NCBI RefSeq assembly: GCF_017051705.1
Contig: NZ_JAFIDJ010000001.1
Span: 310,001 to 374,000 of the forward strand
Direction: 5' to 3'
Source: Algoriphagus lutimaris
GTDB taxonomy: Bacteria > Bacteroidota > Bacteroidia > Cytophagales > Cyclobacteriaceae
Length of the DNA: 64,000 nt
Below, piece by piece: positions 8,511-24,406 of this stretch; the stretch's first letter is position 1, and every line of letters begins with the position of its first letter. Both the position numbers and the translations under genes were made by a program. The notes below the pieces were generated by a model. That model worked only from the letters and a program-made list of their open reading frames with translations. It was not told the DNA's origin and ran no database searches.

Positions 8511-10151
8511 ATGTTGAAAAAACTGGTTTCATATACTATTGTACTATTCACCATATTTAGTTGCAGTAACTCAGAAAATAAGTTTTCCCAGCTACCGAAT
8601 ATTCTTTTTGCAATCATGGATGATGTTACCTATATGCATATGGGTGCTTATGGTAGCGATTGGATCAATACACCTAATTTTGATCGGGTTGCGGCTCAGG
8701 GAATTCTCTTTCAAAATGCGTATACCCCTAATGCAAAATGTGGACCTTCCAGGTCTAATATTTTGACTGGTAGGAATTCCTGGCAACTGGAAGAAGCGGT
8801 CAATCATTGGGCTTATTTTCCGGTGAAGTTTAAGTCTGTCGCAGAATCTTTGTCTGAAAATGGGTACCATGTTGGCTATACAGGTAAAGGTTGGGCGCCA
8901 GGAGTGGCAAAACATGAAGATGGAAGCCCAAGAGATCTATTGGTTCATCGATACAATGATATTAAGTTAACTCCGCCTACACCACATATAAGTAATGTGG
9001 ATTATGCAGCTAATTTTGAAGCGTTTTTGAAAGATAAGGAGGAGGGAGAACCTTTCTTTTTTTGGTATGGAGGTTTAGAACCACACAGAGGTTATGAATA
9101 TGGCTCCGGAATAGCGAAGGGAGGAAAGCAACTAAGCCAAGTGAACGATGAAGCCATTTTTTCCTTTTGGCCTAAAGTGGACTCTGTCAGAACAGACCTA
9201 TTGGATTATGCCTTTGAAATAGAATATTTCGATCAGCAGCTAGGAATAATGCTGGATCAGTTGGAGGCCTCTGGTGAGTTGGAGAATACCTTGATCATTG
9301 TTACTTCAGATAATGGCATGGCATTCCCAAGAATCAAGGGGCAGGAATATGAATATTCAAACCACTTACCTTTGGCGATGATGTGGCCTGCAGGAATTAA
9401 GGCCACAGGTAGGAAGGTAGAGGACTTGGTAAGCTTTATTGATTTTGCCCCTACATTTTTAGAGTTGGCAGGAATTTCTGAGGAAAATTCAGGAATGGAA
9501 GCTATTACAGGGAAAAGTTTAACGGAGATTTTATTTTCAGAACAAGAAGGAAAAGTTACTGATTTTAGGGACCAGGTTTTGATCGGAAAGGAGCGACATG
9601 ATGTGGGTAGACCAAATGATGAAGGGTATCCTATTCGTGGGATATTCAAAGATGGAATGCTTTACCTGAAAAACTTTAAAACCGATAGATGGCCCGCAGG
9701 AAATCCCGAAACTGGATATCTAAATACTGATGGAGGGGCTACCAAAACGGTAGTTTTGAATAGTATTTATTCTCCAGATACATTTCGATTTTGGAATTGG
9801 TCATTTGGTAAAAGAAATGAAGAAGAATTGTTTGACATTAAAAGTGATCCAGACTGTATGAGAAATTTGGCTTTGGAGGAAGAATATCAAGAAATTCTCA
9901 AGGAGATGCGAATGCTATTGCTTACAGAATTGACCGAACAAGGGGATCCAAGAATGTTTGGAAAAGGTGATGTTTTAGAGAGTTATCATTACGCAGATCA
10001 AGATGGAGTGAACTTTTATGAACGATACCTAAATGGAGAGAATGTGAAATATGGTTGGGTAAATCAAACTGATTTCCAAGATTTAGATAAAATTGAAACG
10101 TATCAACATTTGAAAAATGGAAGTAATTCCGTGCTATTAAACAAAAAATAA
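8511..10151 (+). CDS. Sulfatase lipoprotein (type I, formylglycine-dependent)
   Basis: 546 residues. A short signal ends in FSC, lipid Cys at residue 18. Metal-binding residues D37-D38 lie in [10 protein letters not shown], and the modification motif C77-G-P-S-R ([13 protein letters not shown]) shows that Cys77 is converted to formylglycine for sulfate-ester hydrolysis. SDNGMAFPR is the later metal-site motif. The overall pattern, including the early [10 protein letters not shown] segment, is closest to the N-sulfoglucosamine sulfohydrolase-like branch, but the substrate is not certain. It would act in the periplasm or at the cell surface on sulfated glycans. The next gene, 19 bases after its stop, is a second sulfatase, so both are probably co-transcribed. 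No maturase gene is in the window. Confidence 0.9.
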
Positions 10152-10170
10152 ATTTGATTAAACATAACAC

Positions 10171-11718
10171 ATGAACCTAAAATCTACTATTCTTTTATCT
10201 CTATTTATAGGCCTATCTAGTGTCCTAGTGAGTTGTTCTTCTGATACGAAAGAAGAAATTGAAGAGAACCCATCCAAACCCAATATTGTAATTATCTATA
10301 TGGATGATTTGGGTTATGGAGATATGGGAGCCTATGGAGCCACAGAGATCAATACGCCAAATATGGATCGGTTGGCCAATGCAGGTTTAAGATTTACCAA
10401 TGGCTATGCTTCCTCTGCCACCTGTACTCCAAGTCGCTATGCTCTACTTACTGGGACTTATCCATGGAGAAATAAAAATGCCCATATTTTACCAGGTACA
10501 GCACCATTGATTATTGATACGGCACAATTGACTTTGCCGAAGTTGTTAAAAGAGCAAGGCTATTACACTGGGATAGTAGGGAAATGGCATTTGGGCTTAG
10601 GTGATGGGAATACTAATTGGAATGAACATATTTCTCCAGGGCCAAATGAGGTAGGCTTTGATTATAGTTACATTTTAGCTGCTACTCAGGATCGAGTTCC
10701 TACAGTTTATATTCACAATGGGGATGTTGATGGTTTGGACCCTAATGATCCTATTGAGGTGGATTATTCAACCAATTTTGATGGTGAGCCAACTGGGTTG
10801 GATAACCCGGAATTATTGACCATGAAATGGCATCACGGGCATAACAATAGCATCGTTAACGGGATTCCAAGAATTGGTTTTATGAAAGGTGGAGCATCTG
10901 CTAAATGGAGCGATGTGGATATGGCCGATCACTTTTTGAAGAAAGCTCAGGATTATGTGAAATCCCATAAGGAAGAATCATTTTTCCTATACTATGCATT
11001 GCAACAGCCACATGTCCCTAGAACACCCAATCCAAGATTTGTAGGTGCTTCAGGGATGGGACCTCGTGGAGATGTAATTGTTGAAGCAGATTGGGTAATT
11101 GGGGAGTTTATTAAAACCTTGGAAGAAGAAGGTCTCTTGGAAAACACATTAATCATATTTTCTAGTGACAATGGCCCTGTATTGAATGATGGGTATTATG
11201 ATAATGCAGTAGAGATGCTTGGCGATCATACCCCTGCGGGGCCGCTGAGAGGGGGTAAGTACAGTTTGTTTGAAGCTGGAACTAGAGTTCCGTTTTTTAC
11301 TTATTGGAAAGGCACTATTCAATCAGGTGTTTCTGATGCGTTAGTTTCTCAAATTGACTTGATGACTTCTTTGGGACGCTTAGCAGGTAGTACAAAAAAA
11401 GGGGAGGATAGTGAAAATTTCCTGAATACTTTTCTTGGAAAATCAGATCAAGGAAGAAATGAATTGATATTGGAAGCAACAAGTAGGCTAGCGATTAGAA
11501 AAGGAGATTATGTGATGATTCCTCCTCACAAAGGAGCTCCAAAAATTGAGACTGTAAATATAGAGGTAGGAAATGATCCTAATATTCAATTGTATGACTT
11601 GAAATCTGACATAGGACAACAACAAAATATTGCAGAGCAGCAACCGGCTATTGTTTCTGAAATGATTCAGGATTATCAAAGAATTACTGGGAAGGAAGTG
11701 GATTTAAAGATGAAGTAA
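10171..11718 (+). CDS. Arylsulfatase-like lipoprotein
   Basis: 515 residues. The signal ends in LVSC (lipid Cys 22). Metal ligands D45-D46 lie in IVIIYMDDLGYGDMGAYG; the catalytic motif is C85-T-P-S-R (TCTPSRYALLTG), a Cys-type formylglycine site. GKWHLGLG and SSDNGPVLNDG are further conserved sulfatase segments. It follows the first sulfatase directly and ends before a strong terminator. The two differ clearly in sequence, so they likely act on different sulfate positions of one glycan. No SusC/SusD or glycoside hydrolase genes adjoin them, so a full polysaccharide locus is not seen here. Confidence 0.93.
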   Translation: MNLKSTILLSLFIGLSSVLVSCSSDTKEEIEENPSKPNIVIIYMDDLGYGDMGAYGATEINTPNMDRLANAGLRFTNGYASSATCTPSRYALLTGTYPWRNKNAHILPGTAPLIIDTAQLTLPKLLKEQGYYTGIVGKWHLGLGDGNTNWNEHISPGPNEVGFDYSYILAATQDRVPTVYIHNGDVDGLDPNDPIEVDYSTNFDGEPTGLDNPELLTMKWHHGHNNSIVNGIPRIGFMKGGASAKWSDVDMADHFLKKAQDYVKSHKEESFFLYYALQQPHVPRTPNPRFVGASGMGPRGDVIVEADWVIGEFIKTLEEEGLLENTLIIFSSDNGPVLNDGYYDNAVEMLGDHTPAGPLRGGKYSLFEAGTRVPFFTYWKGTIQSGVSDALVSQIDLMTSLGRLAGSTKKGEDSENFLNTFLGKSDQGRNELILEATSRLAIRKGDYVMIPPHKGAPKIETVNIEVGNDPNIQLYDLKSDIGQQQNIAEQQPAIVSEMIQDYQRITGKEVDLKMK

Positions 11719-11738
11719 CTATTTGATACCTACTTGAG

Positions 11739-11780
11739 AAGGATTTAAATTGGATGAAAGTCCTTTTAAATCCTTTTTTT
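11739..11780 (+). terminator. Terminator after the sulfatase pair
   Basis: AAGGATTTAAA (11739-11749) is an exact reverse complement of TTTAAATCCTT (11765-11775) and is followed by a T run to 11780. Confidence 0.88.
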
Positions 11781-11837
11781 GTTTGAATACCTAGAGGAAT
11801 TATTTTACTTCTAAATTGATTGTTGATAGGTAGACTA

Positions 11838-13244
11838 ATGGGAGATGAAAAGCTTATGAAAAATAACCAAGGCTTGCTTGAAGGAAGCATTTTTAAATCT
11901 TTAACCACGCTAGCCTGGCCGATTATCATGGCCAACATTCTTCAAACTGCTTATCAATTAATAGATACTTTTTGGCTTGGAAGATTAGGCGCTAATGCCG
12001 TTGCAGCTGTGAGTATCAGTTTCCCGATATTGTTTTTAGTCTTGTCCTTAGGTGCTGGATTGACCTTGGCAGGAACGGTCATTGTTTCTCAGTACAAGGG
12101 AGCTTCCAATCAAAAAATGATTGATTTTTCTGCTGGACAAACAGTGGCTTTGGTATTGCTAGTTTCCACCTTCTTAGCAGTGGTTGGGTTTCTTTCAGCG
12201 AGACCTTTGATGGTACTGATAGGAGCTGGGCCTGAAATCCTAGAAGACTCAGTTTCTTATTTTCAAGTGTCTTCTTGGGGCTTTGTGTTCCTTTTTATGT
12301 TTTTTGTTTTTCAATCCTTGATGCGGGGAATCGGGAATGTAATGCTTCCTATGTATATCGTTTTGGGGACTGTTTTTCTAAACCTAGTGTTAGATCCCCT
12401 TTTTATTTTTGGTTATGGGTCCATCCCAGGTTATGGCGTAGCAGGGGCAGCTGTAGCAAGTGTCATTACTCAGGGTATTTCCGCTGTGGTAGGTTTGATA
12501 ATTCTATTTGGAGGTAAACGTGGAATTAGAATTAAGCTTAAAGAAATGATTCCCCAATGGGAATGGGTAAAACGGTTATTTTCCTTAGGTATCCCCGCAA
12601 GTTTAGAGCAGTCCTCCAGAGCTGGTGCGATGACTGTGATGGTGATGTTGGTTACAAGCTTTGGAAGTAATGTAGTGGCTGCCTATGGAATTGGAGCTAG
12701 AATATTAAGCTTAGTCATCGTCCCTGCTCTAGGGTTTGCGATCGCTACTACCACCCTTGTTGGTCAAAATATAGGAGCCGCGAAAATCAAACGTGCTGAA
12801 AAAATAGGGGACCTAAGCAGTAAAATTGCATTCTTTGGTTTGACTGGTGTTGGGCTGATATTATTTCTTCTTGCAGAGCCATTGACTCGGTTTTTTGTTC
12901 CTAATGATCCACAAGTAATTCGAGAAGGTTCTAAGTTTATTAAGATAATGGCGCCGAGTTTTGGTTTGTTGGGAGTTCAACAAGTATTAAATGGATTGTT
13001 TAATGGAGCGCGCTTTACACAGGCCTCTATGTTGATTTCAGTTTTTAATATGTGGATTGTGCGGTTTCCGCTGGCCTTTATCCTTTCCTACCAGACAGAC
13101 TTAGGTTTTGAAGGGATATGGTGGGCTTTCCCAATTTCCAATCTATTTGCAGCTATAGTGGCTTTTATCTATTATAAATCGGGTCATTGGAAAGTCAGGA
13201 CCCTTAGAAAACGGCACTTATGGCTTCAACAAGGAATAAATTAA
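11838..13244 (+). CDS. MATE family efflux transporter
   Basis: 468 residues from ATG 11838; the frame is open to a TTG at 11820, and another ATG is at 11856. The protein is almost wholly hydrophobic with about 12 membrane spans in two similar halves. The opening (LLEGSIFKSLTTLAWPIIMANILQ) and the DTFWLGRLGANAVAAVSISFP segment are typical of MATE exporters, which use Na+ or H+ gradients to expel drugs and metabolites. A terminator separates it from the upstream sulfatases. Downstream lies a degraded gene on the opposite strand. Confidence 0.9.
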   Translation: MGDEKLMKNNQGLLEGSIFKSLTTLAWPIIMANILQTAYQLIDTFWLGRLGANAVAAVSISFPILFLVLSLGAGLTLAGTVIVSQYKGASNQKMIDFSAGQTVALVLLVSTFLAVVGFLSARPLMVLIGAGPEILEDSVSYFQVSSWGFVFLFMFFVFQSLMRGIGNVMLPMYIVLGTVFLNLVLDPLFIFGYGSIPGYGVAGAAVASVITQGISAVVGLIILFGGKRGIRIKLKEMIPQWEWVKRLFSLGIPASLEQSSRAGAMTVMVMLVTSFGSNVVAAYGIGARILSLVIVPALGFAIATTTLVGQNIGAAKIKRAEKIGDLSSKIAFFGLTGVGLILFLLAEPLTRFFVPNDPQVIREGSKFIKIMAPSFGLLGVQQVLNGLFNGARFTQASMLISVFNMWIVRFPLAFILSYQTDLGFEGIWWAFPISNLFAAIVAFIYYKSGHWKVRTLRKRHLWLQQGIN

Positions 13245-13254
13245 GGGCTTTTTT

Positions 13255-13374
13255 TTAATCTCGTTCCCAGAAGAAAGGAGGTTCAATTCCTAATGCTCTC
13301 AGATAGACATACCCTTGCCCTCTATGTTGAACATGGTTTTTTGTATTGTGGAGCCAATTGAGCTTTAAGAAAAG
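13255..13374 (-). pseudogene. C-terminal remnant of a DinB-like (DUF1572/YfiT-type) gene
   Basis: Read on the minus strand, 40 codons from 13374 to the TAA at 13255 give a peptide containing HNTKNHVQHRGQ and LRALGIEPPFF, which matches the usual C-terminal end of DinB-superfamily four-helix proteins (H...HRGQ metal motif, then LR..G..PP). The frame is closed upstream by TAA at 13375-13377 and no matching N-terminal part is found in the next few hundred bases, so this is a leftover of a deleted gene. The peptide resemblance is from memory and not from a search. Confidence 0.55.
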
Positions 13375-13692
13375 TTAAATGAACTAATCGATGATATAAA
13401 GAGAATTCGAGAAATCTAATATTCTTCGTAATCCTGATTTTGTTGGGATTTTGCTCTTTATTCTTCCTTTTATTTCTTAATTCTTTTGATTTTGGAATAA
13501 AATACAAGTAATAAATTTTAATTTGTACTTAAGATTTTGGGATAGGGTATTCTGATTACTCTTAGCGATTTTTGAAAATTAGACGATGATTTTTTCTCAT
13601 CTCTAAATTTTTCTTTGGCATCAATCAAGATTTCTACTCAAATTCTACCCTTTTAGGGAGAAAAATCACTTTAAACAAACATCATTTTTACT
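13375..13692. other. AT-rich intergenic region before the CHAT protein gene
   Basis: 318 bases with no supportable gene. It must hold the promoter of the large gene at 13693. A TTTG (13613) and a TACCCTTTT (13647 region) are present but not at the usual spacing, so no promoter is called. Confidence 0.5.
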
Positions 13693-16600
13693 ATGTCAAC
13701 ACTGAAACTCAAGCTCAAAGGAAATGACCATTTACCTTTTATTAAAGGGGAGGATAATGGTTTTGAATATTATGGTTTGGATCAGGCATTTACAGTTTTA
13801 AGCCCTACCCGTGGCGATGTAGAGGAGCAAACAATCGAAATAGATGATGACCATATTATTGAATTTGAATTTGACGATGATAGCGTTTGGCTAGGAGACA
13901 AGGAAACTCTTCGTGATATTTTTCCAGAGCGTTTCAAACGTTCTGCTGGCGAAGATGAACTTTTTTTGCCCGATGAAATTGCTACAGAAGAAACGGATAG
14001 AGGGATCTTCAAAAAAGTGGGTATCAAACTATTGAAGATTTTTGTCAAGAAAAAGGTGATCCGACCAAAAATGAGGGAGTTGGCGATCAATCTGGAAAAC
14101 AAACAGCTGGCATTTCGGGGAAACGATTTTGAAAAAGTAAAGTATGGTATTTTATGCCATTGTTTGCCGGATTTTGAATTAGAGGAAGTCAAAGCGCTGG
14201 ACTCTTCCAAAAGACATTTGTTGTTTTTGCATGGTACCGGTTCATCTACCAAGAGTTCTTTTGGAGATTTGAAAGATTCTGAAGATTGGAAGAATTACAC
14301 CAGTGAATATGGGCTTGACCAAATTCTGGCTTTTCAGCATAGAACCTTGTCTAGCAGTCCTCTTGAGAATGTTTTGGATTTAGTCAGTCAGCTCCCAGAT
14401 GAGATCGAATTAGATTTGATCAGTCAATCTCGTGGAGGTTTGGTGTCAGATGTTTTTGCAAGGTTTTGTACCGATCCAAGGGGGTTTGATACAGCAGAGT
14501 TGGAGGTTCTTGTTGACCATGATCGAGACCGTGATGTAGAGGTAATCAAGGAACTTAAATCTTTGATGGAGTCTAAAAAAATCACTATTCATAAGGTGGT
14601 TCGTGTGGCCAGTCCGGCGAATGGAACGACCCTAGCTTCCAAACGATTGAATATATTTTTAAATGTAACCTTCAATTTGATCGGGTTGGCAACTGGGCAA
14701 GCTGGAAATCCAATTTTCATCACTTTTAAAGAGATGATTATGGAGGCTGTGGCTTGTAAAGACGATGTGGATGTGCTTCCTGGGTTGGAAGCTATGAACC
14801 CCAAATCTCCATTTATCAAGGCTTTAAATTATCAAGGATCACAGATAGTGATCCAATCTCCTTTGTATGTGGTAGGGGGTAGTAGTGAGTTGAGTTTACG
14901 ATTTAAAAGTCTGGTGGTCTTAGTTGGTAAGTTCTTCTTTTTGGATAAAAACGACTTGGTAGTGGATACCGAAAGTATGAAGTGGGGTGCAGTGAGAAAA
15001 GAAGGGAATGTTTCAGTTTTTATAGAAAAAAGCGGTTTGATAGACCACTTTAAATACTTTTCTTCTCCCAGGACTTTGAAAGCAGTGGTGGATGCATTAG
15101 ACGCTTTGATGGACCAAGAGCCAGAAGGCTTTGTGACCTTTGCGAAAGCCAGTGGTAAAGAAAGAGGAGTGTTTGGTATAGAGGGTGGAGATTACAAACG
15201 AGAAAAAATTTCAGGTAAAAAACCAATTGTCATTCTTTTACCGGGAATAATGGGCTCCAACCTGAAGGATGAGAAAAAGCTTTGGATTAATTATTTCCGT
15301 TTTTTGAAAGGCGACTTATCCAAATTAAGTTATACAGACAGCGGTAAACAGCCTATTCAAGCGGACTCTTTAATATCCACCTCTTACGAGGCCTTAGGGA
15401 AAAATCTAGAAAAAAGCTATGAGGTGTTCACGTTTCAGTTTGATTGGAGAATACCTTTAAAAGCCAGTGCTGAAAAGTTAAATGCAAAGATTTCAGAATT
15501 ATTAAAGTTTAATCAGCCCATCAAGATAGTAGCGCATAGTATGGGTGGAGTTTTGGTAAGGGATTTCATTTTATATCATCCCGAAACCTGGCAAGTATTG
15601 AATAAGTCCATTGGGTTCAAAGCGGTCTTTTTAGGTTCTCCTTTGGGAGGATCTTATCGAATTCCTTATGTGCTTTTTGGAAAAGACAGTTTGATCCGAT
15701 TGTTGGGTAAAATTGATATAAAAAATAATACGAAAGACCTATTATCTGTTTTTTGTGATTTCCCCGGAATACTCAATCTGTTGCCGATCAATAAAAATGG
15801 GAATCATGACTTTTCAAGCAGGAGTTTTTGGGAAAAATTGAGAGCTGCATCTGGTGATAGCTCTTGGCCAATTCCATCCAAAACTGTATTGGATGAATTT
15901 GCTATTCACCAAAACAAGGTTATGGCAGAGGCTGACTCAATAGACTATAGCAATATTACCTACATAGCTGGACAAAGCAGTAAAAAGAACTTTACTGTTT
16001 CTAATCTGGAAATTGAAGATGGAGAATTGGTCTTTTATGCCACTAATGCAGGGGATGAAAGCGTTACATGGAAATCTGGAATCCCTGATGGAATTAGAAA
16101 GGCGGGACAATATTATTACTGTAATGTAACCCATGGAGGGCTTTCGAAGGATAGTAAGTTATTCTCGGCTATTGAAGACCTACTGATTTATGGATCTACC
16201 TCCAAATTACAAAATAGTCTTCCGATCGTGAGAGGTGAAGAGCAAGAGTTTGCACCTAAAGAGACAGAGGTATTTGATATCAGTGAAGAGAATGTTGTCA
16301 ACAGCATACTTGGAGTAGATAAGGAAGAGGAAAAATGGAGTGTAGAAGCTCCAATTAGAGTATGTGTAAGCCATGGAGATTTAAAATATGCAGACTACCC
16401 AGTTTTAGCAGGACATTTTGAATATGATTCAATTTTGACTACAGAAAAAGCGATTGATTATCAATTGAATGGTGAGTTGAGCAGGTTGTTAAGACTCGGT
16501 TTATATCCAGGGCCAATTGGTTCAAATCAAATCGTTTTAGCTGATAAGGATGCGGAGACAAAATTTAAAGGTGGCGTCATAGTTGGTTTGGGGGTCCCTG

Positions 16601-18999
16601 GCGAATTATCGGGATTTCAGTTGATGGTATCCATAGAAAAAGGAGTTTCCAGGTATCTGACCATAAAAAATGCCCCTGAGGAAGAGATTTCAGATGAGAC
16701 AATAGGTATTTCCGTCATAGCGATAGCAAATATGTATGGAGGATTGTCTACAGAGAGTTCAATTAGAGCGATAGTTCAAGGTGTTCAACGAGCTAATAGA
16801 AATATTAGAAATTATTATGAGTCGAAAATAAAAGTAATTGAAGAAGTAGAATTCATAGAGATTTTCCATGACAAAGCTTTGTCCATATTGAAATCCGTTC
16901 AACAATTGCAAAGCAGCGATAGCAGAGACTTTAACATTGTATTCAAGGGAAAAGGGTTGAAGTCAAAACTGGGTAAGAGATGGAGAATTCCATATGATAA
17001 TTCTTCGGATTGGTGGACAAGAATTACCGTAAGGGAAGAGCAAAAAGGGTCTGCTGAAATTCTCAAGATTGCTGTGGCGACGAGTGGGGCCAGTGAAAAG
17101 GTGGAAGAGGTTGAATCCAATAACAAGACCTTGGAGATTTTGCTGAAGGACATGACCTTAAACAATCAATATTCTCCGGAGATTGCTAAAACTATGTTTG
17201 AGTTGTTGGTTCCTTTTAGTTTTAAAGAGGAATTGAAAAGGCAAAATAATATCTCTTGGGTGTTGGATATTGCTTCAGCGGAATATCCTTGGGAGATGAT
17301 CCAAGAAGATGTGAATGCTGTTCCTCTTTGCATCCATACAGGGATGGTAAGGCAACTGTCAACCGGGAATTTCAGGGAGAAGACGTCTAGGGTGAAAAAT
17401 AAAACTGCGGTGGTAATCGGTGATCCTCAGCTGGATCAGTTCATGTCGCAATTACCGGGAGCAAAGAGAGAGGCGGAAATGGTTTCTAGCTTACTGAAAG
17501 ATGCAGGATACACCACTCAAAGTCTCATCAATACAAATGCTTCAGAGATTTTTTTAAAGCTCTTCTCCAAAAATCATAAAATAATTCATTTGGCGGGGCA
17601 TGGTGTTTTTAATTATGGTAGCAAAAAAGCAACAGGAATGGTCATTGGAAATGACACATTCTTGACCCCAGGACAGATTGCAGGAATGAGTGAAACTGCA
17701 GAGATGGTTTTTGTGAATTGTTGTTACTTGGGGCAAATGAATCAAGAGTCTGAGAAGGAAAGTCAACAGCGAAATAAGTTTGCGGCAAATATTGGAACTC
17801 AATTAATCAATAATGGGGCAAGGGCAGTAGTGGTAGCTGGTTGGGCAGTGGATGATTCGGCTGCTTTGGAATTTGCGAGGCAGTTTTATAAATGCATGTT
17901 TTCCGGTGTAGGGTTTGGAGAAGCCGTAAAAAGGTCTAGAAAAAGGATTTATGAGGAATTTGGAAGAAGAACGAATACCTGGGGGGCATTCCAGTGTTAT
18001 GGTGATCCATTTTATAATCTCTCTAATGGAGCTAGAGATAGCTCTGGCAGTTCAGGAGTGGTGATAGAAGAAGAGGTGGAAATTGAGTTGCAAAACCTAT
18101 TACATCAATTGGAGGCCAATCAAAACGACCATGAATATGTGCTCGGTAGGGTGAACAAATTGGTAGAAGCAACAGAAAAAATAGGGCTGGAAAATGATAG
18201 GATTGTAGAGCTTACAGCGGCGTTATATAATGGACTGAATAATTATGCGAATTCCATAGCATGCTATAAAAAGCTTCTTTCCTCTAATAAGGCTAGCTAT
18301 TCCATGAAGTCTCTTGAGCAATATGGCAATGTAAGAGCTAAGTTTGCGGTTAAGAATTTCTTGGAAGAATCGATCAGTGGACCAGATACGATTAAGGAAA
18401 TAGATGTAGTGATTGCTGATTTTGATAACCTACTCAAATTTGGTCAAACGAGAGAGCGATTAAGTTTGATGGGAAGTACTTACAAAAGAAAGATGTTTGT
18501 ACAGCAAAAAATGGGAGCCAAAGAAAGTATTAAATCTCTAAAAGAATCTATCTCTTATTATGAAAAAGCTGCTAGTAGCAGTGATTTCAAAGATCCTTAC
18601 CCTTTAACAAACTGGCTTTCTTTATTAAGGTTGGCAATGCTTATGGAAGGAAAATCAAGCATTACAACTATTCCACTGGATGCGAGAAAAGCATTGGATG
18701 AATTGAAAAATAGGTGTGAAAAGAAACTGGAAGAAGAAAAGGATTACTGGACATTTGCAAATCTGGCTACTATTCAATTAACCCAGCTAATTCTCGGAAC
18801 TTCTAAGGTAAATCTAAATGAGGTTAAAAAGTCTTACAATGAAGTTTGGAAAATGGCGGGAAATAAAGGCCAGAAAAATGCAGAGATCGAACACTTGGAA
18901 ATTCTAAGTTTGATTATTTCGAAAATTAAAAAGACCGATTCAAAAGAATTAGGAAAGGATATTGGTCAGTTAATGGAGTATTTGAAAGCTAGTATATAG
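13693..18999 (+). CDS. Giant two-hydrolase plus CHAT (caspase-like) protein
   Basis: 1768 residues, no signal peptide. Domains seen: 1-150 beta-rich, acidic; 170-400 first alpha/beta-hydrolase (HLLFLHGTGSS at 175-185, nucleophile elbow SQSRGG with Ser246); 510-790 second alpha/beta-hydrolase of LCAT type (PIVILLPGIMGSN at 511-523, elbow AHSMGG with Ser616); 885-1050 a conserved-looking domain (VCVSHGDLKYADYPVLAGHF, then GGVIVGLGVPGELSG); 1160-1445 CHAT protease domain with His1303 in HLAGHG and Cys1344 in VNCCYLG; 1460-1768 helical, repeat-like, probably TPR-like. CHAT domains are caspase-relative proteases found in bacterial immunity and separase-like roles. The gene stands alone, closed by a terminator, next to a gene remnant and a tRNA. 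A cytoplasmic effector that combines lipid or ester hydrolysis with proteolysis is inferred; the trigger and substrates are unknown. Confidence 0.85.
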   Translation: MSTLKLKLKGNDHLPFIKGEDNGFEYYGLDQAFTVLSPTRGDVEEQTIEIDDDHIIEFEFDDDSVWLGDKETLRDIFPERFKRSAGEDELFLPDEIATEETDRGIFKKVGIKLLKIFVKKKVIRPKMRELAINLENKQLAFRGNDFEKVKYGILCHCLPDFELEEVKALDSSKRHLLFLHGTGSSTKSSFGDLKDSEDWKNYTSEYGLDQILAFQHRTLSSSPLENVLDLVSQLPDEIELDLISQSRGGLVSDVFARFCTDPRGFDTAELEVLVDHDRDRDVEVIKELKSLMESKKITIHKVVRVASPANGTTLASKRLNIFLNVTFNLIGLATGQAGNPIFITFKEMIMEAVACKDDVDVLPGLEAMNPKSPFIKALNYQGSQIVIQSPLYVVGGSSELSLRFKSLVVLVGKFFFLDKNDLVVDTESMKWGAVRKEGNVSVFIEKSGLIDHFKYFSSPRTLKAVVDALDALMDQEPEGFVTFAKASGKERGVFGIEGGDYKREKISGKKPIVILLPGIMGSNLKDEKKLWINYFRFLKGDLSKLSYTDSGKQPIQADSLISTSYEALGKNLEKSYEVFTFQFDWRIPLKASAEKLNAKISELLKFNQPIKIVAHSMGGVLVRDFILYHPETWQVLNKSIGFKAVFLGSPLGGSYRIPYVLFGKDSLIRLLGKIDIKNNTKDLLSVFCDFPGILNLLPINKNGNHDFSSRSFWEKLRAASGDSSWPIPSKTVLDEFAIHQNKVMAEADSIDYSNITYIAGQSSKKNFTVSNLEIEDGELVFYATNAGDESVTWKSGIPDGIRKAGQYYYCNVTHGGLSKDSKLFSAIEDLLIYGSTSKLQNSLPIVRGEEQEFAPKETEVFDISEENVVNSILGVDKEEEKWSVEAPIRVCVSHGDLKYADYPVLAGHFEYDSILTTEKAIDYQLNGELSRLLRLGLYPGPIGSNQIVLADKDAETKFKGGVIVGLGVPGELSGFQLMVSIEKGVSRYLTIKNAPEEEISDETIGISVIAIANMYGGLSTESSIRAIVQGVQRANRNIRNYYESKIKVIEEVEFIEIFHDKALSILKSVQQLQSSDSRDFNIVFKGKGLKSKLGKRWRIPYDNSSDWWTRITVREEQKGSAEILKIAVATSGASEKVEEVESNNKTLEILLKDMTLNNQYSPEIAKTMFELLVPFSFKEELKRQNNISWVLDIASAEYPWEMIQEDVNAVPLCIHTGMVRQLSTGNFREKTSRVKNKTAVVIGDPQLDQFMSQLPGAKREAEMVSSLLKDAGYTTQSLINTNASEIFLKLFSKNHKIIHLAGHGVFNYGSKKATGMVIGNDTFLTPGQIAGMSETAEMVFVNCCYLGQMNQESEKESQQRNKFAANIGTQLINNGARAVVVAGWAVDDSAALEFARQFYKCMFSGVGFGEAVKRSRKRIYEEFGRRTNTWGAFQCYGDPFYNLSNGARDSSGSSGVVIEEEVEIELQNLLHQLEANQNDHEYVLGRVNKLVEATEKIGLENDRIVELTAALYNGLNNYANSIACYKKLLSSNKASYSMKSLEQYGNVRAKFAVKNFLEESISGPDTIKEIDVVIADFDNLLKFGQTRERLSLMGSTYKRKMFVQQKMGAKESIKSLKESISYYEKAASSSDFKDPYPLTNWLSLLRLAMLMEGKSSITTIPLDARKALDELKNRCEKKLEEEKDYWTFANLATIQLTQLILGTSKVNLNEVKKSYNEVWKMAGNKGQKNAEIEHLEILSLIISKIKKTDSKELGKDIGQLMEYLKASI

Positions 19000-19020
19000 G
19001 AAATTACTAGATGTATAATA

Positions 19021-19060
19021 AAAAAGCCCTGCAGTTTAAAATGCAAGGCTTTTTTTTTTT
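19021..19060 (+). terminator. Terminator of the CHAT protein gene
   Basis: AAAAAGCCCTGCA pairs with TGCAAGGCTTTTT (19021-19033 with 19042-19054, one mismatch) and runs into a tract of about 14 T. Confidence 0.88.
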
Positions 19061-19181
19061 AAGTAGAGGGTGGGGGATTGGCTTCGCCTTTCCCTAGTTG
19101 GGGGAAAGATGCAAACCAAGCCTACTCAGTTCGTTCGTTTTGGTCTTTTTATTTCATAGCCACTCAAGCAAGCTTGGTAGT

Positions 19182-19218
19182 TAAAAACAAAAAGCCCTTC
19201 CGCTATGCGAAAAGGCTT
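19182..19218 (-). terminator. Terminator of the tRNA-Ser transcript
   Basis: On the minus strand AAGCCTTTTCGC (19218-19207) pairs along 12 bases, with two G-U pairs, to GCGGAAGGGCTT (19203-19192) across a 3-base loop, followed by TTTTTGTTTTT. It starts seven bases after the tRNA 3' end. Confidence 0.85.
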
Positions 19219-19224
19219 GCTTTG

Positions 19225-19313
19225 CAGAGGGTGGGGGATTCGAACCCCCGGTACGGTTTGACCCGTACGACAGTTTAGCAAACTGCTGGTTTAAGCCACT
19301 CACCCAACCCTCT
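19225..19313 (-). tRNA. tRNA-Ser (anticodon GCU)
   Basis: 89 bases. The acceptor strands AGAGGGT (5') and ACCCTCT (3') pair over seven bases with discriminator G at 19225; the T arm reads CCGGGGGTTCGAATCCCCC; the anticodon arm CAGTTTGCTAAACTG holds anticodon GCT; a long variable arm (GTACGGGTCAAACCGTAC) is typical of class II serine tRNAs. CCA is not encoded. A promoter is seen 330 bases upstream, and three partial copies of the tRNA lie between promoter and gene. Confidence 0.95.
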
Positions 19314-19586
19314 ATTATGTGTTTCCAAAATAATATTCTGGAATTAAGTTTAGCAAGCTGCTGTCCCGATAACTATCGTGGATAAGCCACTCACCCAACC
19401 CTCTATTATGTATTTCCAAAATAATATTCTGGAGTTAAGTTTAGCAAGCTGCTGTCCCGATAACTATCGTGGATAAGCCACTCACCCAACCCTCTATTAT
19501 GTGTTTCCAAAATAATATTCTGGAATTAAGTTTAGCAAACTGCTGTCCCGATAACTATCGTGGATAAGCTACTCACCCAACCCTCT
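19314..19586 (-). repeat. Three tandem 91-bp repeats carrying the tRNA-Ser 5' half
   Basis: Units at 19314-19404, 19405-19495 and 19496-19586. On the minus strand each begins with the same 22 bases as the tRNA 5' end (AGAGGGTTGGGTGAGTGGCT and two more), then has a 20-base hairpin-like insert with CCACGATAGTTATCGGG in place of part of the D loop, then AGCAGCTTGCTAAACT, matching the tRNA anticodon arm with zero or one change, then an AT-rich tail with a TTCCA/TGGAA inverted repeat. The third unit keeps GTTTGC as in the tRNA; units 1 and 2 have GCTTGC. None has the T arm or 3' acceptor strand, so none can be a complete tRNA. Confidence 0.9.
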
Positions 19587-19648
19587 ATTTTGACTTTAGG
19601 AGAATAGGAAATTATTCAAATAAACCTCCTTGTTTCCTTAAGGCGTTG

Positions 19649-19680
19649 CAAATATAAATCAATTGATAAGATTATAACAA
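19649..19680 (-). promoter_or_regulatory. Promoter of the tRNA-Ser transcript
   Basis: On the minus strand a perfect Bacteroidota -7 element TATATTTG (19656-19649) lies 21 bases after a TTG (19680-19678), giving a start near 19642. The transcript would read through the three partial tRNA repeats before the tRNA. Confidence 0.65.
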
Positions 19681-19777
19681 GCTTCAGAGGCATAGAAATC
19701 ATTTCTATTTTACTTTTTTGTTAAAATACTGGTAATCAAAAGAAATAATTTACATGTTCGTAATTCCTTTTTGGTAA

Positions 19778-19799
19778 AAATACCCAGTACTGGGTATTT
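19778..19799. promoter_or_regulatory. 22-bp perfect palindrome, candidate operator
   Basis: A perfect 22-base inverted repeat with the 16-base core TACCCAGTACTGGGTA (19781-19796) flanked by AAA/TTT. It ends at the position of the -33 element of the promoter for the gene at 19850, so it is well placed for a dimeric activator or repressor. The regulator is not identified. Confidence 0.7.
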
Positions 19800-19826
19800 C
19801 TATTGAATTTCGCTTTTATAAATTTG
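19797..19826 (+). promoter_or_regulatory. Promoter of the small gene at 19850
   Basis: A perfect -7 element TAAATTTG (19819-19826) lies 18 bases after TTTC (19797-19800), which would serve as the -33 element. The predicted start near 19832 leaves a leader of about 18 bases. Confidence 0.65.
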
Positions 19827-19849
19827 TGATCAATCCTCTTTTAAAAACT

Positions 19850-20104
19850 ATGTTAATACAAACTAGCAACGGAAATTTTTTGATAGAAAGAAATAATTTG
19901 AAATCAGATTCTGTGAAAATTAAAACTAACTCAAAAGAAGAACTCCAGCGATTTTTTGGCTCTAATCAGATTATTTTTACTTCGAACTCAGATTATCCAT
20001 ACCATATTTTTGCTTGTAAACAAGAATTTGCGAATGCATTGATTCTGATGGTAAAAGAGATAGAATATTCTGAATTTATCAACCATGAGCTGATTAATCG
20101 ATAA
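19850..20104 (+). CDS. Small hypothetical protein under a palindrome-controlled promoter
   Basis: 84 residues from the ATG at 19850; a GTG at 19826 in the same frame overlaps the -7 element and would lie upstream of the predicted transcript start, so it was not used. The protein is soluble with no signal, cysteine motif or recognised domain (starts MLIQTSNGNFLIERNN, ends EYSEFINHELINR). The AT-rich codon use matches nearby genes. Its value lies in its regulation: a perfect palindrome next to a good promoter implies tight control. It is followed by its own hairpin terminator and then the PAS protein gene. Confidence 0.7.
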   Translation: MLIQTSNGNFLIERNNLKSDSVKIKTNSKEELQRFFGSNQIIFTSNSDYPYHIFACKQEFANALILMVKEIEYSEFINHELINR

Positions 20105-20132
20105 TCTCAAAAAAACTTGAAATTTTTTTTAG

Positions 20133-20163
20133 AAATGCTTTTCAGGGATGAAAAGCATTTTTC
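20133..20163 (+). terminator. Terminator after the small gene
   Basis: AAATGCTTTTC (20133-20143) pairs exactly with GAAAAGCATTT (20150-20160), followed by TTTT. A/T runs on both sides allow it to work in both directions. Confidence 0.75.
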
Positions 20164-20324
20164 GTTTAATCACTTACTTTTTTCTGTCTTATAAAAATAT
20201 TAATTCGAATAACCGATTTTTATAGTATAAAATTCTTTAAAAGCATCTTTTTTTAATTGATAATTTTTATCAATCTTTAAGTTCAAAGAATCAAGAAGTT
20301 GTCACCTAGTACTTCTTTAATGCT

Positions 20325-21620
20325 GTGATTAGTGCTGAAAAAATAGAAAATCTTATTCCGGAGGTTTTAATGGATTCTAATCATTTTTTTCTCATCCTGA
20401 TGGATGTGGAAGGAAATCTATTGGACTCTAATAAAATCTTTAAAGAGACTGTTGAGGGAGTAGAAACTGCTTCCTTGTCTTCGTATTTGTCTGAAAGCTC
20501 TTGTAGTGATTTTGCAAATACTTTAGATGAGTTATTGTCTTGCCCAAAGCAAAAGCAGCACTTACTATTAGAATTAAAAGGATATCGAGGTAATTCTAAG
20601 GTTTGGATTGAGTTTTCAGTCATTACCAATCTTGATATGGATTTATTAGGTGTGGTTGGGATAGGAATAGATTTTCAGTTTCTAAAGCAAGAAATACCAT
20701 TAGAAAATCTTAGTGATCTTCTGGGTTTATCAAGTATCCTATTAGACAAGGATTTCTGTGTAATTGAAGTGGAGGATGTAGTCAGAAATTGGCTTGGGAT
20801 TGAGTTCGAGGATTTTTCTGGCAAAAGGATATTTGAATCTGAGCTTGGTTTGGAGATAGTAAATAATACCTCGTGGAAGAGCTTTTTGGTGGGTGATGAA
20901 AGTTCTCAATTTCTGCACCTAATAGATTCCAGACGGGGTCATGAATTTACGGGCTTATTGGTCCGATATAAAAAAGGATATCAACTTTTTTTACTTCCAA
21001 AAATGAAAGAATCATTTTCTCTTCAGACTACAAAACCATTTAGTGAAACTCAATTAACAGCAATTCCAGGGTCTGTTTGGGTAGTGGATTCAGATATGAA
21101 ATTAATCCAGCAAAATAATGCGGGGAAAGTACTTTCAGAATCATGGTCTGGGTCGAAGCTTTTAGAGGGGGCAAAGCTCCAATTTACTTCCAGTTCCTCT
21201 AGATTTTCCCAATTAAAGGAAAATGTGAGAAAATGTCTTTTGAAAGGAATTTCCTCAGAAATAGAATTGAACCTCAAATTAAAAGAGGGTGAATTTGGTT
21301 TTTGGAAAGTAATAGTAAAGCCTGTTTTGAGTCCTAATGGGGATCGAATTGCAGCTTTGATACAAGCGATAGACATTTCTGCTTGGGGAAATAAACTAGT
21401 GGAGATCCAAAATGAAAATAAAATGCTTAAAGAGCTGGCATTAAAACCTTCTCATGTATTGCGTTCTCCATTGTCATCTATGTTGGGACTTTTGGACCTG
21501 ATCGATCCTCATCAATTGGACATAGAGAATCAAAAATATTTTTCATACCTCAAACCATTGGCGAAAGAATTGGATGATGTTATCAGAACTAACGCCAAAA
21601 AGATGAGTGTGTTTGATTAA
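20325..21620 (+). CDS. PAS-domain protein with kinase-like H-box but no ATPase domain
   Basis: 431 residues from GTG 20325; an alternative ATG lies at 20370. Three PAS-like segments can be proposed: about 18-120 (FFLILMDVEGNLLDSNKIF), 125-225 and 245-355 (PGSVWVVDSDMKLIQQNN ... RIAALIQAIDISAW). The C-terminal end has SHVLRSPLSSMLGLLDLI with His377, like a histidine-kinase dimerisation box, followed by about 40 helical residues and the stop. The N, G1 and G2 boxes of an ATPase domain are absent. There are no membrane spans, so it is cytoplasmic. It may be a kinase partner or phospho-acceptor that depends on another ATPase, or a truncated kinase. It overlaps the next, convergent gene by four bases. 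Confidence 0.75.
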   Translation: MISAEKIENLIPEVLMDSNHFFLILMDVEGNLLDSNKIFKETVEGVETASLSSYLSESSCSDFANTLDELLSCPKQKQHLLLELKGYRGNSKVWIEFSVITNLDMDLLGVVGIGIDFQFLKQEIPLENLSDLLGLSSILLDKDFCVIEVEDVVRNWLGIEFEDFSGKRIFESELGLEIVNNTSWKSFLVGDESSQFLHLIDSRRGHEFTGLLVRYKKGYQLFLLPKMKESFSLQTTKPFSETQLTAIPGSVWVVDSDMKLIQQNNAGKVLSESWSGSKLLEGAKLQFTSSSSRFSQLKENVRKCLLKGISSEIELNLKLKEGEFGFWKVIVKPVLSPNGDRIAALIQAIDISAWGNKLVEIQNENKMLKELALKPSHVLRSPLSSMLGLLDLIDPHQLDIENQKYFSYLKPLAKELDDVIRTNAKKMSVFD

Positions 21621-23143
21621 TAAAGCCCAATTATGTTCATTTCGCTCAGTTTGCCAGGGATATAAACTTCTCCAAAATTTATCTCTTCTCCAGAAATAAT
21701 GATCTCATTATTTGTCCTGAAAACGACCCCTTCTGTTTGGGAAAGAATAGAAGGACTTCCTAGATAAACCCTTCTTTTTCTTCCACTGAAAAACTCAGTA
21801 TTACTAAAATCTGAAAACAACCAGATAAAAGATTGGCTAGCAATTCCCTTATTTTCATAGCCTAAAAGAGCAATTACTTTTCCATCTGGACTTAAATCTG
21901 CTCCAGTTATTAATCCTTGGGTATCGAATTCCTCTGTAGGTGATACTTCTTGCTTTGTTATTTCATCCTTTATCACGTAGTGCCTAGTTTTTCCATCCCC
22001 TCGGTTTTTGGTAAATAGATGAAGTTGGTTGTTCAGGAAAAAGAAACTTTCACAATCAAAGTTATTGCTCTCCATTGGCCCGGAAAAATTCACCTGATCA
22101 GCAAATGAAAACTCTATTATTTCTGCCACTAAACTATTGGAATGAAGGAGTTCGTCTTTTGAGACTCTAAGAATACTTAAGTTTTTTCTACTTCCGATGT
22201 TGTTCCCAAAGTCTCCAATATAGACATGAGACTCACTTTGGGCTAAATCCTCCCAATCTTCATTGAAGGCATTATCTATAGTTATTTCTCGTATTAGTTG
22301 ACCGTCTTCTGGATTGAACTCTTGAATTTTGGGGTCATTGTCTTTATCATTTATGGAAAATAATCTTCCATTGATGAGTGCTAACCCAGAACTTTCGTTG
22401 AGGGACGTTCCTAATTCAGCTTGAATCCAGGGTAAAAGGTTGATTGGTTTATGGTCCAAGTCCAGATTTACTTTCTCCTGAATTAGTTCAAAGTCAATTT
22501 TTTGAAAAGTACTAAGTGCATTTTCATTTTGTTTCTGGATAATTTTTGCCAGGTGATGAAAAGAGGTCGATTGGCTGATTACCTTAAAACTGGATGATGG
22601 ATTATTCGATGTAAGTTCTAGGGTAGTTTTTATGCCTGATTTGATGTATTTGTAATAGACCTCCTTATTCTTATTGAGTTGGATTGAGGGATGCGAAATA
22701 AACTTAGGAGCGGGTGAGTCAGGACTTTGTGAGAGGGTCAATAAACCATAATCGGTGTCTACGGGAAATCTCCATGATTGCTTTTCTTGATTGAGGTTTA
22801 GTTGCCCCTCAGCTTTTAAAGGTAAAAAATCCGAAAAATCTGGACTGACAGATATCGAATGAAAAGTATAATTCCCCAATGGTAGTTCGATTGAAAAAGA
22901 CTTTTCAATAGTGTTGGGGTTCAGCTCTAATTGAAAGGTTTGGTTGGTTTCATTGGTGAAGTTGACTATCATGGAATTAGTCAACACATGTGTCCAATTT
23001 GTTCCATTATCGTTGGAAAGTGGGAAGTTTCCCAAATCTATTCCTGTAACCGTAAGTATTCCATTACCAGGCCTTGGTTTTTCATCTTCTTTACATGAAA
23101 ACAAAAAAGAGAATGCCAAAAGGATAAAAAGAAACTTCTTCAT
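21617..23143 (-). CDS. Lipoprotein with C-terminal beta-propeller-like domain
   Basis: 508 residues from the ATG at 23143; an in-frame TTG at 23155 was rejected because the ATG gives a compact signal MKKFLFILLAFSFLFSC with lipid Cys 17. The N-terminal part (about 25-125) is beta-rich. From about residue 235 the sequence (ESSGLALINGRLFSINDKDN, WEDLAQSESHVYIGDFGNN, TGADLSPDGKVIALLGYE) resembles SdiA-regulated or phytase-like propellers that bind metals or phosphate esters. Enzymatic function is unproven. The gene converges with and overlaps the PAS gene stop. Confidence 0.75.
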   Translation of the reverse strand: MKKFLFILLAFSFLFSCKEDEKPRPGNGILTVTGIDLGNFPLSNDNGTNWTHVLTNSMIVNFTNETNQTFQLELNPNTIEKSFSIELPLGNYTFHSISVSPDFSDFLPLKAEGQLNLNQEKQSWRFPVDTDYGLLTLSQSPDSPAPKFISHPSIQLNKNKEVYYKYIKSGIKTTLELTSNNPSSSFKVISQSTSFHHLAKIIQKQNENALSTFQKIDFELIQEKVNLDLDHKPINLLPWIQAELGTSLNESSGLALINGRLFSINDKDNDPKIQEFNPEDGQLIREITIDNAFNEDWEDLAQSESHVYIGDFGNNIGSRKNLSILRVSKDELLHSNSLVAEIIEFSFADQVNFSGPMESNNFDCESFFFLNNQLHLFTKNRGDGKTRHYVIKDEITKQEVSPTEEFDTQGLITGADLSPDGKVIALLGYENKGIASQSFIWLFSDFSNTEFFSGRKRRVYLGSPSILSQTEGVVFRTNNEIIISGEEINFGEVYIPGKLSEMNIIGLY

Positions 23144-23194
23144 TATTGAGCCCAAATGAGGGATTACTAAGTTGGATTAAAGCTAATTAAGAAT

Positions 23195-24406
23195 TTAATC
23201 TATCCAAAGTAGACTGCTATCCCCGTAACTCAAGAATCTATAACCAGAATTTAATGCTTCCTCATAAATTTCTCTCCATCGATTACCAAGAATAGACGCT
23301 ATTAAAAGAATCAAGGTAGATCCAGGTTGGTGGAAATTGGTAATCAACCCATTAACAACTTGAAATTGGTAACCTGGGAAGATGAAAATTTCCGTTGAAC
23401 CCACTAACGTATCAATTCCTTTTGCTTCCATATGACTTAGAATAGCTTGAAAGGAATCTTTGTAATGAGGATGAACGGAGGATTCTGTATATGGATAAAG
23501 TTTAGGAATGTTGAATTCCTCTCCATCATTTCTCAATAGCTTCACACCGTACCAATACAGACTTTCCAAGGTTCTGACGGAGGTGGTGCCTACCGCTACA
23601 ATCTTTCCCTGATGTTGGAGCAGATTTCTGATGGTGTCAATAGCTACATGGATCTGTTCGCTATGCATGGGGTGCTCAATGACATTTTTCGACTTGATGG
23701 GTTGAAAAGTCCCCGCACTGACATGCAATGTTACTTCCTCCGTTTTCACTCCTTTTTTTCGGAGTTTTTCTAAAACTTCATTTGTAAAGTGAAGTCCAGC
23801 GGTTGGGGCAGCCACTGCACCCTCTTTTTGGGAATAGACTGTTTGGTATCTATCACGATCTTCGGCTACTGGCTTTCGATTTAAATAGGGCGGTAATGGG
23901 ACTTCTCCACTGGCTTCCACCACATCGACAAACGCAATCTGTTCTTGATCCCATGAAAACTCAACCTCTCTACGATCCCTATTGATTAATTTGGCAGAAA
24001 GGATTATTTCTTGATTTTGATAAATGATCCTTCCCTGAAGGATTTCTCCATCTTTCCATTTTTTTAAATTTCCGATCATGGTCTCCCAAATCACTGGATG
24101 CTTCGCAAGCATAATTTCAGGGATGACGGTAGTAGGGGCGATGGGTTGAAGTAGGAAAATTTCAATTCGGGCACCTGTTTCTCGTTGAAAAATAAGGCGT
24201 GCAGGAATGACTTTGGTATTGTTATAAACCAAAAGACTATCCTCCGGCAATAAATTGGGGATGTCCGAAAATCGCTGATGTGTAATTACCTGATTTTTGA
24301 AATGGAGGAGTTTGGAAGAATCCCTTTTTTCGAGCGGAAACCTAGCAATTCTCTCTTCTGGTAATGTATATTCGTATTCCTTTAAATCAATCTGGGGGAT
24401 ATTCAT
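23195..24406 (-). CDS. queA: S-adenosylmethionine:tRNA ribosyltransferase-isomerase
   Basis: 403 residues. QueA transfers and isomerises the ribosyl part of SAM to preQ1 in tRNA, making epoxyqueuosine at the wobble position. Family segments seen: LPEERIARFPLEKRDSSKLL near the N terminus, LLVYNNTKVIPARL, GAVAAPTAGLHFT, TLHVSAGTFQPIK, IVAVGTTSVRTLE and ITNFHQPGSTLILLI. It is longer than the usual 340-350 residues because of extra segments in the middle and near the C terminus, as in other Bacteroidota. A promoter element lies 22 bases upstream of the start; the gene is divergent from menC. Confidence 0.95.
   Translation of the reverse strand: MNIPQIDLKEYEYTLPEERIARFPLEKRDSSKLLHFKNQVITHQRFSDIPNLLPEDSLLVYNNTKVIPARLIFQRETGARIEIFLLQPIAPTTVIPEIMLAKHPVIWETMIGNLKKWKDGEILQGRIIYQNQEIILSAKLINRDRREVEFSWDQEQIAFVDVVEASGEVPLPPYLNRKPVAEDRDRYQTVYSQKEGAVAAPTAGLHFTNEVLEKLRKKGVKTEEVTLHVSAGTFQPIKSKNVIEHPMHSEQIHVAIDTIRNLLQHQGKIVAVGTTSVRTLESLYWYGVKLLRNDGEEFNIPKLYPYTESSVHPHYKDSFQAILSHMEAKGIDTLVGSTEIFIFPGYQFQVVNGLITNFHQPGSTLILLIASILGNRWREIYEEALNSGYRFLSYGDSSLLWID

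Follow-up and report, generated by a model that had tools for sequence, protein, structure and literature searches.

A CHAT caspase-like protein carrying two serine hydrolase domains in Algoriphagus lutimaris is a candidate signal-gated effector

We analyzed a 64,000-nucleotide stretch of the Algoriphagus lutimaris genome (assembly GCF_017051705.1, contig NZ_JAFIDJ010000001.1, positions 310,001 to 374,000; hereafter the window) with a focus on one gene at 13693..18999, which encodes a protein of 1768 residues. Two serine hydrolase domains, a CHAT caspase-like protease and a C-terminal TPR-S domain are predicted to lie in this single chain. In bacterial immunity, caspase-like proteases and lipid hydrolases are proposed or known executioners that are mostly encoded by separate genes, and in caspase-gasdermin systems the protease and the membrane-breaking effector are separate proteins. 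The fusion of a predicted protease with two predicted hydrolases sets the 1768-residue protein apart from known caspase-like effectors. We lean towards reading it as a cytoplasmic, signal-gated executioner of the conflict or immune kind, which in this organism would act without a linked signal generator. With one protease, a predicted sensor and two intact hydrolases in a single chain, it would offer a compact and testable model for a possible coupling of proteolysis to membrane attack, while the shifting TIR, SIR2 and STAND neighbors of its relatives could serve as natural experiments on the triggering of such effectors.

The reading frame is uninterrupted (1768 aa, no internal stops). Fourteen same-genus homologs align with it end to end at 49-95% identity, 13 of them from Met1; the closest ortholog (genome G018, locus L031) is 95% identical and the other thirteen are 49-73% identical over the whole length. 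Because these homologs match end to end and nearly all start at Met1, neither the frame nor its start is a product of chance. Comparison with the 95% ortholog gave an overall ratio of nonsynonymous to synonymous substitution rates (dN/dS) of 0.05, which indicates purifying selection; CHAT had a lower ratio (0.018) and the TPR-S part a higher one (0.094). The protein is the only CHAT match in its own genome. A preliminary description of this DNA, made from the letters alone, had proposed a single 1768-residue frame without a signal peptide. The frame was borne out by the open reading frame (ORF) and its 14 homologs; the description's motifs SQSRGG (Ser246), AHSMGG (Ser616) and GLGVPGELSG (965-974) and its residues His1303 and Cys1344 are all in place. 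No signal peptide was apparent by reading, and in agreement with this no 19-residue stretch had a mean Kyte-Doolittle value above 1.4 (no signal-peptide program was run). The gene and the predicted parts of its product, all on the plus strand, are as follows.

13693..18999, gene for the 1768-residue protein, ATG to stop (ORF and same-genus homologs)
13693..14208, N-terminal domain, residues 1-172 (the window copy matched no Pfam family)
14209..15102, hydrolase 1, DUF7379 alpha/beta hydrolase, approximately residues 173-470 (Pfam, PDB profile, conservation)
14428-14430, 14953-14955 and 15046-15048, proposed triad of hydrolase 1, Ser246, Asp421 and His452 (conservation)
15205..16242, hydrolase 2, similar to LCAT and group XV phospholipase A2, approximately residues 505-850 (Pfam, PDB profile, conservation)
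15538-15540, 16054-16056 and 16132-16134, proposed triad of hydrolase 2, Ser616, Asp788 and His814 (conservation, coupled loss)
16330..17172, middle domain, residues 880-1160, probably similar to the M17 aminopeptidase N-terminal domain (Pfam in relatives, PDB profile)
17185..18006, CHAT caspase-like domain, residues 1165-1438 (Pfam; invariant dyad)
17599-17601 and 17722-17724, CHAT dyad, His1303 and Cys1344 (conservation)
18070..18996, C-terminal helical region, residues 1460-1768 (TPR-S at 1517-1645, 18241-18627; weak TPR structure matches)

The Pfam assignments of the window protein all lie above the curated cut-offs. Hydrolase 1 matched DUF7379, an alpha/beta hydrolase family, at 3.5e-35 (122.1 bits against a cut-off of 33, best stretch 176-257), and hydrolase 2 matched LCAT at 8.1e-9 (35.6 bits against 21, residues 573-753). 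The CHAT match reached 6.5e-28 (98.4 bits against 24, residues 1165-1438). In profile searches of the PDB, hydrolase 1 found the putative lipase 7x2p (E 5.4e-4) and hydrolase 2 found group XV phospholipase A2 (E 6.7e-8) and LCAT structures; CHAT structures were not matched by the 1768-residue protein in sequence searches of the same database. Both serine hydrolase domains of the preliminary description are thus confirmed, with nucleophiles intact in the window copy, as is its CHAT His/Cys pair. The helical C-terminal part that it had noted holds, as an addition to that description, a TPR-S domain (PF20308, 1.4e-11, 45.3 bits against 27.6, residues 1517-1645), which was also detected in a Rhizobium relative (L049). 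TPR-S has been predicted to be a sensor of nucleotide-derived signals.

The middle domain probably resembles the N-terminal domain of M17 aminopeptidases. M17_N (PF02789) was matched at E<0.1 by the middle domain of 15 of 41 members, with a best value of 7.9e-7, and was above the Pfam cut-off in another Rhizobium relative (L050). The best PDB match of a middle-domain profile was 3jru, the N-terminus of a cytosol aminopeptidase (E 0.021). The M17 N-terminal fold is macro-like, and an ADP-ribose-type pocket is hence possible. Domain searches of the three regions that the preliminary description had singled out accordingly met with mixed success: residues 1460-1768 yielded TPR-S and 885-1050 a probable M17_N-like domain, but 1-150 found no convincing match, nor did the N-terminal domain as a whole (residues 1-172).

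To evaluate conservation of the proposed active sites we used an 81-row alignment, which includes 23 Algoriphagus rows and one row (L049) without hydrolases and omits six loci with ORFs of at most 1650 aa (L080, L104, L114, L129, L130 and L132). The CHAT dyad His1303 and Cys1344 was conserved in 81/81 rows. Ser246, Asp421 and His452 were conserved in all 80 rows that have hydrolase 1; in hydrolase 2, Asp788 was conserved in 80/80 and Ser616 and His814 in 77/80. Judging from residue order and conservation, we infer the roles of Asp and His in both triads. The three exceptions form one Chitinophaga clade (L100, L102 and L103), in all of which Ser616 is changed to Gly and His814 to Tyr. This joint loss supports the assignment of His814 to the hydrolase 2 site and indicates that the clade can do without this site. 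It would also suit the idea that the hydrolases are scaffolds or carriers and that CHAT alone matters, as would the Rhizobium relative that lacks both hydrolases. We consider this idea very improbable, however, since the residues of hydrolase 1 are kept throughout and those of hydrolase 2 nearly so, and since one relative (L052) has a hydrolase with a trypsin domain replacing CHAT.

Evidence for a role in conflict comes from the genes beside relatives. The best 80 of at least 560 relatives, comprising 21 Algoriphagus and 59 non-Algoriphagus loci, underlie the locus and neighbor counts given here. Full-length copies are spread across Bacteroidota, among them Chitinophaga, Flavobacterium, Spirosoma and Aequorivita, and extend to proteobacterial plasmids of Paracoccus, Azotobacter and Ensifer (ORFs of 1767-1795 aa; matches over 72-75% of the query). 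Other relatives combine the same modules differently: L049 consists of middle, CHAT and TPR-S domains with both hydrolases absent, L050 of LCAT, middle and CHAT, L051 of DUF7379 and CHAT, and L052 of LCAT and trypsin. A SIR2 gene lies near L050 and a SIR2-AAA gene adjoins L051. L050 and L051 thus resemble the window protein in their modules and SIR2 genes are found near them, but each has one recognized hydrolase compared with two in the window protein. Both also match CHAT models of PADLOC (L051: BovA 5.3e-12 and SAVED_CHAT 1e-11; L050: BovA 4.2e-6).

Immediate neighbors of at least 100 aa were scanned at the non-Algoriphagus loci, yielding 99 proteins (41/59 loci with both sides, 17 with one side and one with none). 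TIR_2 was the commonest Pfam family among them, with 7 members at E<0.001. Six of the 59 loci have a TIR gene above the cut-off as the next gene, and its architecture varies: TIR/ThsB_TIR at L079, CHASE2-TIR at L109, TIR-nSTAND1-LRR at L111, a short TIR at L116 with DUF4062 on the opposite side, LRR-Roc-TIR 26 bp downstream at L117, and a 581-aa TIR protein at L121. TIR neighbors of L097 and its relative L125 remained below the cut-off. Genome-wide TIR counts for 47 of the 59, taken with a density of one gene per 1100 bases and with genes placed independently, predict 0.064 adjacent-TIR loci; 6 were observed (P(>=6) 4.6e-11). With a TIR profile derived from ten domains, of which six came from loci that it then matched, we found a match within six genes in 13/59 loci. 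In a separate sample of the phylum, sharing no DNA with the 59 loci, TIR genes are the next two neighbors of one of the three full-length copies from outside Algoriphagus. Clustering of neighbors had recovered no conserved partner beyond the synteny of close kin; the TIR genes are divergent and escaped it, and were detected by reading, Pfam and the TIR profile.

Some of these neighbors are part of operon-like sets. At L076 the order is TIR, AAA_31, the DUF7379-LCAT-CHAT family gene and RDD, with start-minus-end distances of 0, 22 and 4 bp; at L079 it is SIR2-like/TIR (the SIR2-like part by reading), nSTAND1, the family gene and TIR, at 9, 88 and 61 bp. An Ensifer plasmid (L046) carries SIR2 (ThsA-like, PADLOC 2.9e-17), nSTAND1, a periplasmic-binding-like protein and the family gene in this order. 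TIR-nSTAND1-WD40 genes flank Rhizobium L049 on both sides, non-adjacently, a type I restriction and Fic cluster adjoins the Azotobacter plasmid copy, and a caspase (Peptidase_C14) gene follows L108 13 bp downstream. Among plasmid relatives a membrane protein, recognized by reading, is encoded upstream; in one Paracoccus copy it has a solute-binding match. Two further kinds of neighbor were recorded as side observations. In two Chitinophaga genomes a SNF2-type helicase gene begins 11 bp after the family gene (L092 14108-18127, profiled; L096 14150-18166). A secreted-looking protein is encoded within four genes in L074, L083, L097, L111, L114 and L121 (Spirosoma, Chitinophagales/Sphingobacteriales) and, in the copy scanned (L074), had no Pfam match above cut-off.

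In the mechanism that we favor, the resting protein would be inactive. Upon infection or stress, either a TIR- or SIR2-type enzyme whose gene lies elsewhere in the genome would make a nucleotide derived from nicotinamide adenine dinucleotide (NAD), or a STAND sensor would engage the protein. TPR-S and/or the middle domain would take up the signal and open the CHAT active site, CHAT would cut cellular proteins and perhaps its own linkers, and the two hydrolases would attack membrane lipids or other esters, so that the cell would be killed or arrested before the invader spreads. In Algoriphagus the signal generator would act in trans. A much more specific version would have an NAD-derived signal, supplied in trans by TIR or SIR2 enzymes, dock on a core of TPR-S and the M17_N-like (possibly macro-type) domain and CHAT cleave its own chain, freeing two membrane-dissolving lipases, with the Algoriphagus protein as an orphan effector that depends on TIR generators from other parts of the genome; that all of this holds together seems unlikely to us.

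Known systems provide partial parallels. In type IV Thoeris, the TIR product N7-cADPR activates a caspase-like protease (PMC12847820). Compared by description, the family shares with it a caspase-like effector tied to TIR genes in some relatives and a proposed NAD-derived trigger; it differs in that no TIR gene stands in an operon with it in Algoriphagus and in the two hydrolases within the 1768-residue chain. Caspase domains of VMAP ternary conflict systems are always accompanied by a neighboring alpha/beta hydrolase (Kaur et al. 2020, PMC7159879). The pairing of a caspase-superfamily protease with an alpha/beta hydrolase is common to both, whereas the hydrolase there is a separate neighboring gene and two hydrolases are fused to CHAT here. 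By reading the ORFs of 9000-24000, with three neighbors profiled, no MoxR ATPase or vWA genes were recognized. Death-like domains are also found fused to effectors that include alpha/beta hydrolases and caspases (PMC8195603). Craspase TPR-CHAT (Csx29) and separase likewise have a CHAT His/Cys dyad alongside TPR-type helices, and TPR-CHAT is activated through a rearrangement of its dyad (PMC9729208); TPR-CHAT, however, has an N-terminal TPR followed by CHAT, whereas TPR-S here is C-terminal of CHAT. The combined DUF7379-LCAT-CHAT-TPR-S architecture is not described in the accessible portions of PMC10907252, PMC13236601 and PMC12419801. Within the partial coverage of our literature search, we recognized no paper describing an architecture with DUF7379, LCAT, CHAT and TPR-S and found none on TPR-S together with CHAT, on DUF7379 or on the TPR-S domain. 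Hydrolase 2 shares the nucleophile region and a DWR segment with LCAT and group XV phospholipase A2; unlike these, it is a predicted lipase without an apparent signal peptide inside a protease fusion.

Several results weigh against a signal-gated immune executioner. Its proposed sensor, TPR-S, was not detected by Pfam in the three full-length plasmid relatives scanned for it, L045, L047 and L048. The M17_N identity of the middle domain is likely rather than settled because the window copy did not match PF02789 in Pfam and hhalign gave no support in a comparison with five M17 peptidases (probability 0.6 percent). The window protein has no clear match to a defense model in PADLOC (best BovA, E 0.0046), and no relative was found in viral contigs (two pattern scans) or phage records, where carriage by phages or viruses was accordingly rejected. 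With respect to TIR genes, 46/59 non-Algoriphagus loci have no match within six genes (six ORFs were available on both sides in 29/59), and in the phylum sample neither the remaining two of the three full-length copies nor the partial-architecture loci L148-L150 have one. Matches by distance from one to six genes were 6/109, 4/104, 4/98, 4/92, 1/85 and 2/76 ORFs. TIR genes are thus raised at distances 2-4 too, as clustering in islands would produce, so that adjacency need not mean partnership and the chance figure given above becomes less extreme.

Within Algoriphagus, the gene stands alone: synteny is shared among relatives and there is no conserved partner. Neighbors in the window and at 14 same-genus loci, in at least three chromosomal settings, are housekeeping-like by reading, which led us to reject a defense island in this genus, and the TIR profile found no match near any of the 21 Algoriphagus loci. 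Six TIR matches occur in the window genome itself; on the contig that carries the gene, the nearest lies approximately 155 kb away. When 23 of the 36 same-genus genomes were compared (small metagenome bins, G029 and the contig-truncated G032 omitted), those bearing the gene were richer in TIR matches (mean 2.9 vs 1.1, p 0.01; per Mb, p 0.04), a difference tempered by their larger size (p 0.02). The neighborhood survey that the preliminary description had proposed therefore gave a divided answer: TIR, SIR2, STAND or DUF4062 genes lie beside some relatives, but no defense island was found in Algoriphagus. Its suggestion of an anti-phage or abortive-infection effector fares similarly, in keeping with the immune or conflict association of some relatives and with the intact proposed sites, but not with the housekeeping-like neighbors in this genus.

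Such isolation would be expected of a self-contained sensor and effector, whose N- and C-terminal regions would sense a phage component or stress directly, with no nucleotide messenger, and which would kill through CHAT and the hydrolases. The lack of a TIR match near most other loci fits this as well, as do evolutionary rates: mean pairwise identity is lowest in the N-terminal (0.31) and TPR-S (0.28) parts, compared with 0.54 for CHAT, and sensors are often fast evolving. STAND, TIR, SIR2 or periplasmic-binding-like genes beside relatives suggest, however, that sensing is often delegated, and we hold direct sensing to be possible but doubtful. The preliminary description had also called the effector self-contained. 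Most loci indeed show no partner, but the presence of TPR-S, together with operon-like gene sets around some relatives, points outward, to an external signal or sensor. Self-containment is thus one of the two weakest points of that description; the other is its idea that proteolysis and lipid or ester hydrolysis would control each other.

A housekeeping or stress enzyme, a regulated lipid or ester hydrolase with a CHAT processing domain acting in envelope turnover or development and having no immune role, was also considered. Housekeeping-type neighborhoods in Algoriphagus and some families, the purifying selection described above and recurrent murein-related neighbors are consistent with it. 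Among the 99 immediate neighbors, PG_binding occurs in 4 and VanY in 3 (loci assigned by reading); a GH108 gene adjoins L049, and at L145 a PG-binding protein, by reading, is encoded 4 bp from the family gene. The murein-related neighbor genes are as follows.

L071, 14331-15089
L082, 8249-8854
L089, 8248-8853
L094, 8106-8783
L145, 6008-7243
L049, 12803-13417

Against such a role, the gene is patchy, being present in 16/36 same-genus genomes (including the window genome and one copy broken by a contig end) and, at whole length, in 5/296 sampled Bacteroidota genomes, two of the five Algoriphagus; moreover, relatives reside on plasmids and TIR genes are enriched. We therefore regard a purely housekeeping function as unlikely. 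Core neighborhoods combined with a known housekeeping role had been named in the preliminary description as a sign that would refute an immune function: the Algoriphagus neighbors do look housekeeping-like, but no housekeeping role is known and the distribution is patchy. The history of the family is probably a mix of vertical and mobile inheritance. A wholly vertical or wholly mobile history was rejected, as members group by class in the tree (FastTree alone, with long branches flagged), with 10 label changes where shuffles give 34.4.

The immediate surroundings of the gene in the window agree with the gene remnant and tRNA gene that the preliminary description had placed alongside it.

13245..13692, no strand assigned, upstream interval with 3' remnants of two genes (alignment to genes intact in G018, L031)
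19224-19313, minus strand, tRNA-Ser(GCT)

Approximately 1.4 kb, which in G018 holds the greater part of the two genes, is missing from the window at 13245-13692, where the 3' ends of both genes remain. Judged by reading, the genes intact in G018 encode a DinB-like protein and a WYL/YafY-like regulator. On the other side, a 91-bp unit is repeated in 3.3 copies with 97% identity at 19292-19589; it overlaps the 5' end of tRNA-Ser, and the tRNA gene start and leader have therefore been multiplied. MATE, QueA-like and PAS-protein neighbors are present in 8, 23 and 17 of 23 genomes, respectively (gene presence only, flanks unaligned). The MATE transporter gene, common to L031 and L032, is adjoined by a pair of sulfatase-like lipoprotein genes (by reading) at 8511-11718. 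In Pfam, the PAS protein encoded at 20325-21620 matched HisKA below the cut-off and showed no ATPase domain; its counterpart in G001 matches over residues 213-431 alone and contains two in-frame TGA codons.

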